Under the pieces are notes generated by a model. The model saw only the letters and a list, made by a program, of their open reading frames with translations. It did not search any database and was not told the origin of the DNA. From Candidatus Dormiibacterota bacterium (GTDB lineage: Bacteria; Acidobacteriota; Polarisedimenticolia; Gp22-AA2), in contig DASQAT010000046.1 of NCBI GenBank assembly GCA_035635555.1, forward strand, positions 62,001-126,000: a DNA stretch of 64,000 bases, written 5' to 3'. Both the position numbers and the translations under genes were made by a program. Numbering within the stretch: position 1 is the stretch's first letter; the number at the start of each line of letters is the position of its first letter. Shown here piece after piece: positions 47,015 to 54,121 of the stretch.

Positions 47015-47192
47015 TCACCAGGCCGAGCCCGTACGTTTCGCGGCGCCGCCTGCTGCGTCGCTCTGATGAGAGGCGCGGCTCAGGGCCCTGGCCGACACGG
47101 TCATTCCGCTCCTGGCGTCGTGGGGGCTGTCGTCCGGTCCCGGTCCGCCGCGCCACAACGGCCGAAACATGCTGCCTTTTCCAGGCGGTTGC

Positions 47193-47246: not shown

Positions 47247-47953
47247 TTGAGGGACCGGTTCTCACTCTGGCTGGGCCCGATCCTCGCCAGCGGGTTGATA
47301 CGAACGATGCGCCACCTTCTTCGCTTGACCCGCGTCGGCGAGAACGTGGTTCTCGACCTGCACCAGTCAGGCCGTCCCTACGTGCACGCCTTCTACCACG
47401 ACCAGCTTCTCATGATGACCTACTCCTACCTGGGGCAGCCGCACGGGCGGAGGCTTGTGGTCCTGAGCAGCCGCCACCGGGATGGAGAGTACGTGTCGCG
47501 CACCTTGGAGAGGTTCGGGCACCAGATGGTGCGCGGGTCCACGGGGCGCGGCGCGGTGGCCGGCCTGAAGGAGATGATCCGCCATCTGCGGGACGGCCGG
47601 GACGTCGCCTTCGCGACCGACGGCCCGCGCGGCCCGCGCCACCAGGTGCAGATGGGCGCGATCGAGGCCGCCCGACTGGGACGCGCCCCGCTGGTCCCGG
47701 TTGTCTTCGCCGCATCTAAAAAAAAACTCTCCGATCCTGGGACGCCTTCCAGATCCCGCTGCCATTCGCCAGGGCCATCATCGTCTACGGTGACGCAGTC
47801 GAGGTTCCGTTCGAAGCAGACCGCCACGTCATGGAGTTGAAGCGACTCGCCCTCCAGGGAGCACTCGATCGTCTGACCGAAGAGGCGGAGACACTGGCCC
47901 GCGGCGATCGCAAAGCATCGGCCTCGGGGTCGCGTGCCGTGGACACGCGATGA
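47247..47953 (+). CDS. DUF374 lysophospholipid acyltransferase, frame interrupted at an A9 tract
   Basis: A predicted membrane-associated acyltransferase of the DUF374 group, which lies beside lipid A genes in many bacteria. TTG 47247 has AAGGGGG upstream. Motifs are FYHDQLLMM, GRDVAFATDGPRGPRHQVQMGAI and LVPVVFAASKK. At codons 158-160 the frame enters nine A residues (47718-47726). The zero frame then gives an unconserved tail ending at 47840 (197 residues). The -1 frame gives TLRSWDAFQIPLPFARAI plus VYGDAVEVP, exactly the family C-terminus, and ends at 47953 in an ATGA overlap with lpxB. The full product, about 235 residues, therefore requires slippage, or the tract is a sequencing error. 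Confidence 0.8.
47718..47726 (+). other. A9 slippery tract in the acyltransferase gene
   Basis: Nine adenines read TCT AAA AAA AAA CTC in the upstream frame. The phasing A-AAA-AAA suits -1 ribosomal slippage, and the length suits RNA polymerase slippage adding one A. The sequence TAAAAAAAAACTC is identical to that in coaBC at 53363-53375. Confidence 0.7.
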
Positions 47954-49209
47954 GCGTAGGCGGTGTCGCGCGCGTCCTGATCGTCGCGGGGGAAGCTTCG
48001 GGCGATCTCTACGGCAGCCTGGTGATGCGCGCGATGGCCGAGCCTTTGCATCCCCCCGGCGGCCGGATCGGCGCGTCGTCCGGAGCCGAGACGCCCAGTC
48101 CTGGTGTCCGGTTCACCGGCATCGGCGGGCCGGCCATGCGCGCCGCCGGTCTCGCGCCTCTGGGCGACGCCGGGACGTTGGGGGTCACCGGCTTTCTCGA
48201 GGTCCTCGGGAGCGCGCGCGCCATCTGGCGCGCCTACCGCGAGGCCCGGGCCCTCCTGTCTTCGGCGGAGCGACCCGACCTGGTGCTGCTGATCGATTAT
48301 CCCGACTTCAACCTGCGCCTGGCGACGCATGCCAGGAATGCCCGGGTGCCGATCCTCTATTTCGTCAGCCCGCAAGTCTGGGCCTGGCGCAAGGGTCGGG
48401 TGAAGCAGATCGCCAGGACGGTCGATCGGATGCTGGTGATCCTGCCGTTCGAAGAGGAGATCTACCGGCAGGCGGGTGTTCCGGTGGAGTTCGTCGGACA
48501 CCCTCTCCTGGATCTCGTCCATCCGGTGCTCACCCGGGATCAGGCGCTACGTCCCCTGGGTCTCGATCCGGGGCGGCCGACCGTGGCGTTGCTCCCCGGG
48601 AGCCGCCGGAACGAGCTTCGCGCCCACCTGGGGATCATGCGGGCCGCGGCGCTGCGTTTGCGCGAGGAGTTCCGCGACCTGCAGGTCCTTCTGCCCGTCG
48701 CGCCGACTCTCGCGACGGGCGACGTGGAGCAGATCCTGCGCGCGGGGCGCAGGCGAGGCCCAGGGGCCGGCGCCGGGGGGGCCGACTTCGAGTGCGTCCT
48801 CGTGCGCGAGGGTCGCTACGATGCCTTGGCGGCTTGTGATGCCGCGATAGTGGCCTCCGGAACGGCGACGGTGGAGACCGCCCTCCTGGGGGTCCCGATG
48901 GTGATCGTCTACAGGATGAACGCGCTCACCTTCGCCCTCGCCCGCCTCATCTCCGACGTGCCGCACGTCGGGATGCCGAATCTGATCGCCGGCGAGAGGA
49001 TCGCCCCCGAGCTGGTGCAGAACGAGTGCACGCCGGAGCGCATCGCCGTCGAGCTGCGGCGCCTCCTGACCGATCCGCCCGCGGCGGAGACGATGCGCCG
49101 GGCCTTGTCCGGCGTGCGCTCGCGACTAGGCCGGCCGGGCGCCATCGCGAGGGTCGCGGCGGCCGCTTGGGATATGATCGGCGCGCGCGGCCGCAAGCAC
49201 GCGGCCTGA
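47950..49209 (+). CDS. lpxB: Lipid-A-disaccharide synthase
   Basis: A 419-residue GT19 enzyme. It has VLIVAGEASGDLYGSLVMRAM, FTGIGGPAMRAAG, LIDYPDFNLRLA, YFVSPQVWAWRKGRVKQIA, FVGHPLLDLV, LLPGSRRNELRAHL and ASGTATVETALLGVPMVIVYR. It condenses UDP-diacylglucosamine with lipid X to form lipid A disaccharide at the inner membrane. The ATG overlaps the end of the shifted frame of the acyltransferase gene, which implies co-translation. An insert of about 20 residues near residue 35 (proline-rich) is unusual. Confidence 0.96.
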   Translation: MSVGGVARVLIVAGEASGDLYGSLVMRAMAEPLHPPGGRIGASSGAETPSPGVRFTGIGGPAMRAAGLAPLGDAGTLGVTGFLEVLGSARAIWRAYREARALLSSAERPDLVLLIDYPDFNLRLATHARNARVPILYFVSPQVWAWRKGRVKQIARTVDRMLVILPFEEEIYRQAGVPVEFVGHPLLDLVHPVLTRDQALRPLGLDPGRPTVALLPGSRRNELRAHLGIMRAAALRLREEFRDLQVLLPVAPTLATGDVEQILRAGRRRGPGAGAGGADFECVLVREGRYDALAACDAAIVASGTATVETALLGVPMVIVYRMNALTFALARLISDVPHVGMPNLIAGERIAPELVQNECTPERIAVELRRLLTDPPAAETMRRALSGVRSRLGRPGAIARVAAAAWDMIGARGRKHAA

Positions 49210-50852: not shown

Positions 50853-50910
50853 AAACCTGACCGAAAAACGGAGCGGGCAAGAATCGTCCAGTGCGGATGA
50901 TCGGTTGACG

Positions 50911-52290
50911 ATGAGCGAGACTCCTGAATCCAGACGAAACAGTGTTCTCTCGCCTCCGCGCGGAACCGCCCGCAGGAGCGTCTTGTGGGTCGTGTTCGGT
51001 GTCGCTCTTCTCGCGCGTCTTTCGGTGTTCTCGGTCAATTCTTTGAGGGGCGAGCCTTTCTTCCAGCTGCCGGATTCCCACAGTTACATCGAAACCGCGA
51101 GGAGTCTCCTGGAGCACGGTGCCATTCAAGATGATGCGGGGAAGCCGGCCGAGGGGCGCGTCCCGGGCTACCCCCTGGTGCTGGCTCTCATTTTTGCGAC
51201 AGGCATCGCCTCACCTCTTCGGGTGACGGGTGCGGTCCTCGTGCAGTGTCTCCTGGGGGCATGGGTCGTTGTTCTCGCCGCGCGATCGTCCCGGGCGCTG
51301 CCAGGATACCTCGGCGTTCTTCCTGTCGGGCTTCTTCTGGCGATGGAACCCTCAGCCATGGCCTACTCGAATGTGATTCTGTCGGAGATGCTGTACTCCC
51401 TGGTCCTTCTTCTGGCGCTCCAGGCCTGGGAACGTTATCTGAGACTTCAGGATACCGGTACCCTGCTGTGGCTGGGTGCGGTTCTGGGGGTCTTGCCTCT
51501 GGTTCGCCCGATCGGTCAGTTCTTTCCGCTGGCAGTCCTGCCGGTTCTCGTGTGGGCGCGGTGGGGCAGGGCGGGGATGGTCCGCGGAATCGGTATTTTC
51601 ATGCTGGTTGCATTGTCGCCGGCCATCGCCTGGTCTTTGCGCAACTACATTGAACTGGGATTCTATGAACTGCACTCGACCGGCCCATGGGCCCAGGCCA
51701 TATTCGCCCAGGACGTGGAGAGCCACAGCAGTCGGAACGACCCGTCTCCGACCGACAGCTACATCAAACCATGGGAGCCCGGTTTCGGCACGGACCAGGG
51801 CCTCACATCGCGGGAAGCCTCCGTTCAGCGCACGGCGTACTTCCGCACGACCCTCGCCGCCCATCCAGGTGTGGCTGCCCGACAGTGGCTGACCAACTGC
51901 ATCTTCCTGATGGGTGTGCCGGACTCCATGCTGGCCGCGATCCTTCTGGAGCACCCGCCGAAAATCCCGGAGGGCAGTGTGCGTGGCCGGATCGGGTGGC
52001 TCGGCGAGCTGGGGCTGCTGGCTGTGCCGGTGGCCCTGGGCATGATGATTTCCCTCGGGGGGATGGCAGCCATCCCCTGGCTCCTGGCGCGCTGGGGACG
52101 GTGGACTCCTCATATGCAAAAAGTCATGTGTTTCGTCGTGATCGCGGTCCTGTATCACTGCGCAATCTCTTCGTTCGTGGGTCATCAGGGCGAGCGCTAT
52201 CGCGTCCCCATCATACCTTTCCTGGCCCTTCTGCTCAGCTCGGGCGTGGGGCACCTTATTCGAGGAACGGAGTCAACCTCGGGAGGGTGA
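50911..52290 (+). CDS. Multi-pass GT39-like glycosyltransferase
   Basis: A 459-residue membrane protein with ten or more helices. The first periplasmic loop has LPDSHSYIETARSLLEHG, where GT-C enzymes of the ArnT/PMT type carry catalytic acidic residues, followed by GRVPGYPLVLALI. A long loop holds DPSPTDSYIKPWEPGFG. It probably transfers a sugar from a polyprenyl carrier in the periplasm. It sits between gmk and rpoZ, which are usually adjacent. ATG 50911 is preferred; TTG 50905 is in frame just upstream. Confidence 0.72.
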   Translation: MSETPESRRNSVLSPPRGTARRSVLWVVFGVALLARLSVFSVNSLRGEPFFQLPDSHSYIETARSLLEHGAIQDDAGKPAEGRVPGYPLVLALIFATGIASPLRVTGAVLVQCLLGAWVVVLAARSSRALPGYLGVLPVGLLLAMEPSAMAYSNVILSEMLYSLVLLLALQAWERYLRLQDTGTLLWLGAVLGVLPLVRPIGQFFPLAVLPVLVWARWGRAGMVRGIGIFMLVALSPAIAWSLRNYIELGFYELHSTGPWAQAIFAQDVESHSSRNDPSPTDSYIKPWEPGFGTDQGLTSREASVQRTAYFRTTLAAHPGVAARQWLTNCIFLMGVPDSMLAAILLEHPPKIPEGSVRGRIGWLGELGLLAVPVALGMMISLGGMAAIPWLLARWGRWTPHMQKVMCFVVIAVLYHCAISSFVGHQGERYRVPIIPFLALLLSSGVGHLIRGTESTSGG

Positions 52291-52471: not shown

Positions 52472-52744
52472 ATGATTCCCACCGAGAACATCGGCAACAA
52501 GTTCGAGTTCATCTCCGTAGCGGGCGAACGCTGCAAGCAGCTGCAGCGGGGGGCCCGTGCGCGGGTGGAGACGATGGCGCACAAGCCCGTGACCATCGCG
52601 ATGCAGGAAGTGATCGCCGGCGCGATTCCTTACAGCTACGGTCCCTTCCCCGAGGAGTACCCGGTCGAGGAGGTCGCCGAAGTGACGACGGAGACGTACC
52701 CCGCCGACGGCGCCGGTCTGGAGAACCGTGAGCCGGGAAGCTGA
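52472..52744 (+). CDS. rpoZ: RNA polymerase omega subunit
   Basis: A 90-residue protein with NKFEFISVAGERCKQLQRGARARV followed by KPVTIAMQEVIAGAIPY, corresponding to the conserved N-terminal helices of omega. GGAGG lies four bases before the ATG. It lies between gmk and coaBC, the typical neighbours of rpoZ. TAGAAT at 52425-52430 is a possible -10 element. Its end overlaps the coaBC start by 17 bases. Confidence 0.88.
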   Translation: MIPTENIGNKFEFISVAGERCKQLQRGARARVETMAHKPVTIAMQEVIAGAIPYSYGPFPEEYPVEEVAEVTTETYPADGAGLENREPGS

Positions 52745-54121
52745 CGGTCGGAAGCGACGGTCGGCCGGCGGGGTCGTGACGGACGGCAGGCGCCCGGACC
52801 TCTCCGAGGATCGTGGTGCGGAGGCGGGGCGCGCCGATCTGCGCATCGCCCTCGGCGTGAGCGGAGGAATCGCGGCGTACAAGGCGGCCGAGGTGGTGCG
52901 GGGGCTGGTGAAGGCCGGCGCGGAAGTGCACGTGATCATGACCCCGGGGGGGCAGCGGTTCATCACGCCGCTCACCCTGCAGACGCTCAGCGGGCAGCCG
53001 GTGATCACGGGTCAATGGGACCTGTCGCGGGGCGCCGACGTGCAGCACATCACCCTGGCGCGCGGACTCGACCTGTTCCTGGTCGCCCCCGCGACCGCCG
53101 ACATTCTGGCCAAGCTGGCGCACGGCATCGCCGACGATTTCCTGAGCACCTTCTATCTGGCGGTGACGGCGCCGGTCGCGGTGGCGCCCGCCATGAACGT
53201 GTGGATGTGGGAGCACCCCGCCACGCAGGCCAACCTCGCCCTCCTGAAGACGCGCGGCGTGCGCGTCATCGAGCCTGGGATCGGGGACCTGGCGTGCGGC
53301 GACGAGGGGGTGGGCCGCATGGCGGAGCCCGATGTCATCGTCGACGCCGCGCTGGCGGTCGTTAAAAAAAAACTCCGCGGTCGCTTGAAGGCCGCCGCGT
53401 CCTCGTGACGGCGGGGCCGACGCGCGAGGCGCTCGACCCGGCCCGATTCCTCAGCAACCCTTCCACCGGAAAGATGGGGTACGCCCTCGCGTCCGAGGCG
53501 CTGGCGCGCGGCGCCGAGGTCACCCTGATCTCGGGCCCGACGATGCTCGCTCCGCCCGCGGGAGCCAGCCTCGTCCGGGTGATCACGGCGGACGAGATGT
53601 TCCGCGCCGCCCTCAACCAGGCCCCCGGCGTCGACCTCGTCCTCAAGGCGGCGGCGGTCGCCGACTACCGTCCCGAGGAGCGCTCCCGCGGCAAGATCAA
53701 GAAGGAGTCGCTGCGTCGCAAGGCACTCAAGGGGCGCGGCGCCGATCGCGCCATCCTTCTGCGCCTCATGCCCACTCCCGACATCCTGGAGGAGCTTGGA
53801 CGGCGCAAGAAGCCGGGGCAGGTCCTGGTCGGATTCGCGGCGGAGACCGGCGACCTCGAGTCGAATTCGCTGAAGAAGCTCCGGAAGAAGAACCTCGATC
53901 TGGTCGTCGCCAACCGCATCGGCAGGGAGGGGGAGGGATTCGAAGCGGACACGAACCGCGCCCTGGCGATCGATGCAGGAGGACGCAGGACCGAGTTGCC
54001 CCTGATGTCCAAGGAGGCGATGGCGTCGAGGATTCTCGACCTGGCGGAGCGGTTGCTGCGTGAAGGGGATGCGGGGCGGCCCCGCCGTCGCCCGGCGGAC
54101 GCCCGGCCGGAGGCGCCCTGA
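52728..54121 (+). CDS. coaBC: Bifunctional CoaBC, frame interrupted at an A9 tract
   Basis: This protein makes 4'-phosphopantetheine from phosphopantothenate and cysteine. The CoaC half (residues 40-212) has [14 protein letters not shown], the catalytic His in [17 protein letters not shown] and [13 protein letters not shown]. At codons 213-215 an A9 tract (53364-53372) ends the zero frame soon after, at 53408 (226 residues). The -1 frame continues as [19 protein letters not shown] into a complete CoaB half with AAAVADYRP and the Lys motif GKIKKE, ending at 54121; the full product is about 464 residues. GTG 53405 could start a separate CoaB, but would lose its first beta strand. Confidence 0.9.
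53364..53372 (+). other. A9 slippery tract between coaC and coaB
   Basis: The zero frame reads GTT AAA AAA AAA CTC. A gain of one A in the mRNA, or a -1 ribosomal shift, joins the CoaC and CoaB frames. Three consecutive AAA codons are striking, because Lys is almost always AAG in the surrounding genes. Confidence 0.75.

Follow-up and report, generated by a model that had tools for sequence, protein, structure and literature searches.

How a soil acidobacterium obtains a complete lipid A acyltransferase (LpxJ/DUF374 family) from a gene that is split between two reading frames at a run of nine A residues is the question raised by the locus preceding lpxB in the 64,000-nucleotide stretch of DNA analysed here (referred to as the window). 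The answer favoured in the following is that, in a gene of the lpxJ type, the A9 run likely serves as a conserved site of recoding, acting mostly through transcriptional slippage. While the sequence evidence for recoding is strong, the split between a transcriptional and a ribosomal mechanism is a matter of inference, and no transcript or protein data are available. The locus consists of the following features:

47247 to 47726, forward strand: frame-0 N-terminal part of the lpxJ/DUF374 acyltransferase gene (PF04028, E 6.8e-27), with homologues in 9 of 12 genomes of the order
47717 to 47719, forward strand: TAA by which the -1 frame is closed at the start of the A9 run, bounding the site of the frame change
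47718 to 47726, forward strand: putatively slippery A9 run, TCT AAA AAA AAA CTC, read from the sequence; A9/A10 is conserved in relatives
47720 to 47953, forward strand: C-terminal part, read in the -1 frame (KKTLRSWDAFQIPLPF...VDTR), with stop codon TGA at 47951-47953, by sequence reading
47735 to 47743, forward strand: codons for S-W-D, read in the -1 frame; the W and D match the essential W172 and D173 of R. typhi LpxJ
47838 to 47840, forward strand: TGA, frame-0 stop of the unshifted lpxJ product, by sequence reading
47950 to 49209, forward strand: lpxB, its ATG at 47950 overlapping the -1 frame stop (ATGA); TIGR00215, E 8.6e-85

The upstream part scores 92-93 bits against PF04028 (cut-off 26.8) and hence meets the criterion for a DUF374 domain; its start codon is uncertain, the frame being open from the ATG at 47169 and homology beginning at about 47247. 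The C-terminal third of the product is open in the -1 frame only, and both SWDAFQIPLPF and VYGDAVEVP are encoded there. Since the -1 frame is closed by the TAA at 47717-47719, the frame change must fall inside the run. Its 3' limit is pinned as well by early frame-0 stops in other genomes, which occur no more than two codons past the run (CTC TGA in Nitrospirota, TTC TAA in G009). A first-pass annotation of this sequence had claimed an A9 tract at 47718-47726, family residues in frame 0 before it and in the -1 frame after it, and an ATGA overlap of the shifted frame with lpxB. All three claims held: the position is exact, the DUF374 domain lies upstream with the two motifs in the -1 frame, and TGA 47951-47953 overlaps ATG 47950. 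The sequence and its frame relation are thereby shown.

It is likewise shown that the codon-position bias of substitutions goes on in the -1 frame past the run: in family f1, substitutions by codon position amount to 0.08/0.07/0.39 in frame 0 before the run and to 0.24/0.18/0.43 in the -1 frame after it. The criterion for realignment genes of a conserved frame transition with coding constraint on both sides is thus met. Moreover, residues W164 and D165, the conserved W-D of region 4, which are reached only via the -1 frame, are invariant in 38 homologues. The corresponding R. typhi LpxJ mutants W172A and D173A are inactive (PMC6148475), and the spacing is similar, with 39 residues from D125 to W164 here and 40 from D132 to W172 in the R. 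typhi enzyme. Neither residue, each essential to the Rickettsia enzyme (PMC6148475), is present in the unshifted product. The tail of this product is not conserved, as the distance from the run to the frame-0 stop varies from 7 to 150 nt between genomes. At the other end, the -1 stop overlaps lpxB as RTGA in all nine f1 and f2 genomes and as TTGA in the single f5 genome. In both distant relatives tested, the gene 3' of lpxJ codes for a KDO transferase (PF04413), which is also the next gene in most other distant relatives as judged by N-terminus similarity. That the product is a lipid A late acyltransferase is inferred from the DUF374 domain and motifs, and secondary acylation itself is an inference; the sole solved-structure profile match is the distant PlsC 5kym (E 0.0074).

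A referee might object that homopolymers are error prone and that the source genome is a draft of 59 contigs, so that a pseudogene or an assembly or sequencing indel could account for the split. This explanation is all but excluded by the comparison of homologues. All nine genomes of the order that have lpxJ (9/12) carry A9 or A10 and need the -1 change. Across the class, where the named relatives are Acidobacteria 'gp22' assemblies, the tract is present in families f1, f2 and f5, and 10/10 genomes keep both A9/A10 and the -1 need; in those other families whose loci were read (f3, f4, f7-f10 and f12) lpxJ is continuous and without the run. The -1 need is kept despite a change of TCT-A9 to TC-A10 in G004, and likewise with TCG-A10 in G007, a member of another genus. 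Altogether, 159 distinct homologues were classified, 80 of which need -1 (50 with A9, 30 with A10) and 79 of which are in frame (69 with a run below 9, 10 with a run of 9-11). The shifted homologues belong to Acidobacteriota, 'Deltaproteobacteria', Nitrospirota and Syntrophorhabdaceae; in one Nitrospirota class, each of the six genomes searched is in the -1 state. Against an indel, 80 distinct sequences produced by unrelated projects, one of them on a single-contig genome (L287, G166), share the site and the direction, while codon constraint persists past the run and the RTGA overlap with lpxB is kept. Conservation of the site is hence shown, although the homologues share ancestry, so that these counts are not independent trials, and most relatives are metagenome assemblies.

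These data also bear on what else the first-pass annotation had proposed. Its homologue comparison, now carried out, found A9/A10 and the frame relation in many independent assemblies, which makes its refuting outcome, an A10 or A7 run in accurate reads, very unlikely. Its view that the native coding path crosses the tract is supported by -1 conservation (10/10 in the class, 80 homologues), substitution bias and the W-D pair; that a -1 change is 'required' remains inferred without RNA or protein data. One genome of family f1 (G006, 95% complete) gave no match to lpxJ or coaBC, which may be a real loss or an assembly gap.

Another explanation is a phase-variable contingency locus, in which DNA replication slippage would toggle the gene between on (in frame) and off. 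In its favour, the homopolymeric run is located in a surface-lipid gene, in-frame relatives with A9-A11 exist (10/159), and the in-frame A11 lpxJ of L191 is sister to eight -1 genomes with A10. However, no +1 state was found among the 159 distinct homologues, so that all 80 shifted states are -1 and the criterion that all three frames occur is not met. Furthermore, the -1 state is found in all tract-bearing genomes of the class (10/10) and in the searched genomes of the Nitrospirota class (6/6), and the housekeeping gene coaBC has the same arrangement. Phase variation is accordingly considered very unlikely. The L191 case suggests that a one-A deletion began the -1 layout in this part of the tree. 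Supported branches force at least 6 state changes, and the best tree has 17; this tree rests on a short alignment and many of its forks are open. It is thus on the basis of conservation, direction and codon-position constraint that a sequencing error, a pseudogene or random phase variation is regarded as unlikely.

A/T run lengths in the window reach 6 and then jump to 9; 0.01 A9 runs are expected per shuffled window, and two are observed, both TAAAAAAAAACTC. As AAA makes up only 0.12 of Lys codons in the window genes, AAA AAA AAA would arise by neutral codon choice with a probability of about 0.002. The whole assembly (4.28 Mb) contains six runs of nine or more A residues, four of which, by reading, lie next to G+C-rich hairpins of the kind seen at terminators; one of these four may fall within the final codons of an ORF. 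Only the lpxJ and coaBC runs are flanked by coding sequence on either side, and both need -1. In three G+C-rich relatives with assemblies of 3.1-4.6 Mb (G001, G004 and G007), these two sites are the only runs of nine or more A residues.

The second site lies 5.6 kb downstream of the first and also needs -1:

52728 to 53408, forward strand: coaBC, frame-0 CoaC (flavoprotein) half, ending with TGA at 53406-53408; PF02441, TIGR00521
53364 to 53372, forward strand: A9 run of coaBC, lying between its CoaC and CoaB domains, in TAAAAAAAAACTC context, needing -1
53366 to 54121, forward strand: CoaB half of coaBC, open in the -1 frame, its stop overlapping the ATG of the next gene (TGATG); PF04127, E 1.8e-62

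All six f1 genomes having coaBC need -1 in this gene, and a long open frame is found in the f2 genomes and in 17 of 18 distant genomes tested. For coaBC only, coupled restart of a shortened CoaB instead of a shift is possible, as the frame-0 TGA overlaps a GTG at 53405, a candidate restart codon. Two other genes of the cluster may be mentioned: rpoZ (52472-52744), encoding the RNA polymerase omega subunit (PF01192), sits between lpxJ and coaBC, and a 461-aa predicted membrane protein (50905-52290) between gmk and rpoZ breaks an otherwise housekeeping cluster.

By which mechanism, then, would the frame be changed? Ribosomal -1 frameshifting at the A run is a possible alternative. Every run of nine or more A residues includes A_AAA_AAA in frame 0, so that the heptamer criterion is met. 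The f2 and f5 lpxJ runs give A_AAA_AAC, and in L287 and the coaBC of G007 (L039) A9 is followed by G, so that frame 0 reads A_AAA_AAG, the heptamer classically associated with -1 shifting in bacteria. In addition, the direction is always -1, and a magnesium chelatase A9 cassette gave a 40% shift in E. coli, with the mechanism not separated (PMC3711429). Against it, seven A residues suffice for the heptamer, yet runs below nine occur in 0/80 shifted homologues. Neither of the stimulators looked for was detected: upstream SD-like sequences showed no clear excess (0.24 versus 0.15 in run-free homologues), and a search for downstream RNA structure returned a mean z of -0.06, although mononucleotide shuffles make this a weak test. 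With the same caveat, the criterion for stimulated -1 frameshifting of the E. coli dnaX type (SD-like element plus hairpin) is not met.

Transcriptional slippage is preferred over the ribosomal alternative because of the sharp nine-A threshold, the single direction and the absence of detectable stimulators. The threshold and direction are shown: the run is A9 or A10 in all 80 shifted homologues, which meets the realignment-gene criterion that the transition lie in a run of some 9 or more A/T. Selection against A/T runs begins at length 9 in many bacteria (PMC1088944). On poly(A), rescue by E. coli RNA polymerase was seen by insertion, with no deletion (PMC6260861); given insertion-only slippage, -1 and not +1 states are expected. 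Against this, A runs provoke less slippage by the E. coli enzyme than T runs do, so that its efficiency in the present organisms is uncertain. That slippage occurs, and that it is mainly transcriptional, is itself inferred.

According to this slippage model, RNA polymerase would slip on A9, so that some transcripts gain one extra A. On these, ribosomes would enter the -1 frame, finish the enzyme including the essential S-W-D motif and terminate at the lpxB start codon, while faithful transcripts would end translation early and yield a truncated, probably inactive product. The A run would thereby determine what fraction of the enzyme is full length and also, in this group, the number of ribosomes reaching the lpxB start. 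The coaBC run in family f1 probably works likewise, separating CoaC from CoaB.

Only a few cellular genes rely on slippage to make a core enzyme. With representatives in several phyla, no fewer than six forced changes of state and a sharp nine-A threshold, lpxJ would offer a natural panel for studying selection on RNA polymerase slippage. A bolder reading, considered less likely than not, takes selected slippage sites to be fixed-ratio valves that govern late acylation of lipid A in several phyla; selection on output or ratio is an inference only. If this reading is true, the presence of two such sites in one rpoZ-bearing cluster of subgroup 22 Acidobacteria, where in some genomes no other runs of nine or more A residues are left, would tie the stoichiometry of lipid A and coenzyme A enzymes to RNA polymerase slippage. 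On the practical side, lpxJ and coaBC would be called broken genes or pseudogenes in these genomes though their products are probably made, for which protein data are lacking.

Among the closest known systems are dnaX of Thermus thermophilus and the two-ORF dnaX genes, cases of programmed transcriptional realignment at A9/A10 (PMC3711429, PMC1088944). They share with lpxJ an A9/A10 run inside a housekeeping gene, in-frame and -1 layouts among relatives, and the nine-A threshold. In contrast to dnaX, lpxJ is a different gene in which the -1 layout dominates, and its short product lacks essential residues of the catalytic region, whereas that of dnaX is a known subunit. The magnesium chelatase genes of a GeneTack cluster likewise pass into the -1 frame at a long A run, the nine-A cassette reaching a 40% shift in E. 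coli (PMC3711429), but this is another gene, whose two halves had been annotated as separate genes of about 1000 nt. In Shigella mxiE and spa13, the longer product needs slippage, which in spa13 also affects an overlapping downstream gene (PMC1088944, PMC5009743); however, mxiE slips at a U run, and both belong to type III secretion and not to core lipid A synthesis. Described LpxJ (DUF374) late acyltransferases share the DUF374 domain, the DGPRG and S-W-D motifs and a lipid A neighbourhood, but their genes are single ORFs, and PMC6148475 mentions no recoding. Recoding of lpxJ/DUF374 or coaBC was not described in the literature searched; a 2011 survey of disrupted ORFs (PMC3199440) lay outside this search and may include them. 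Hence, programmed realignment at A9/A10 as such is known, while lpxJ and coaBC appear to be new as sites, lpxJ with an unusual breadth of phyla.
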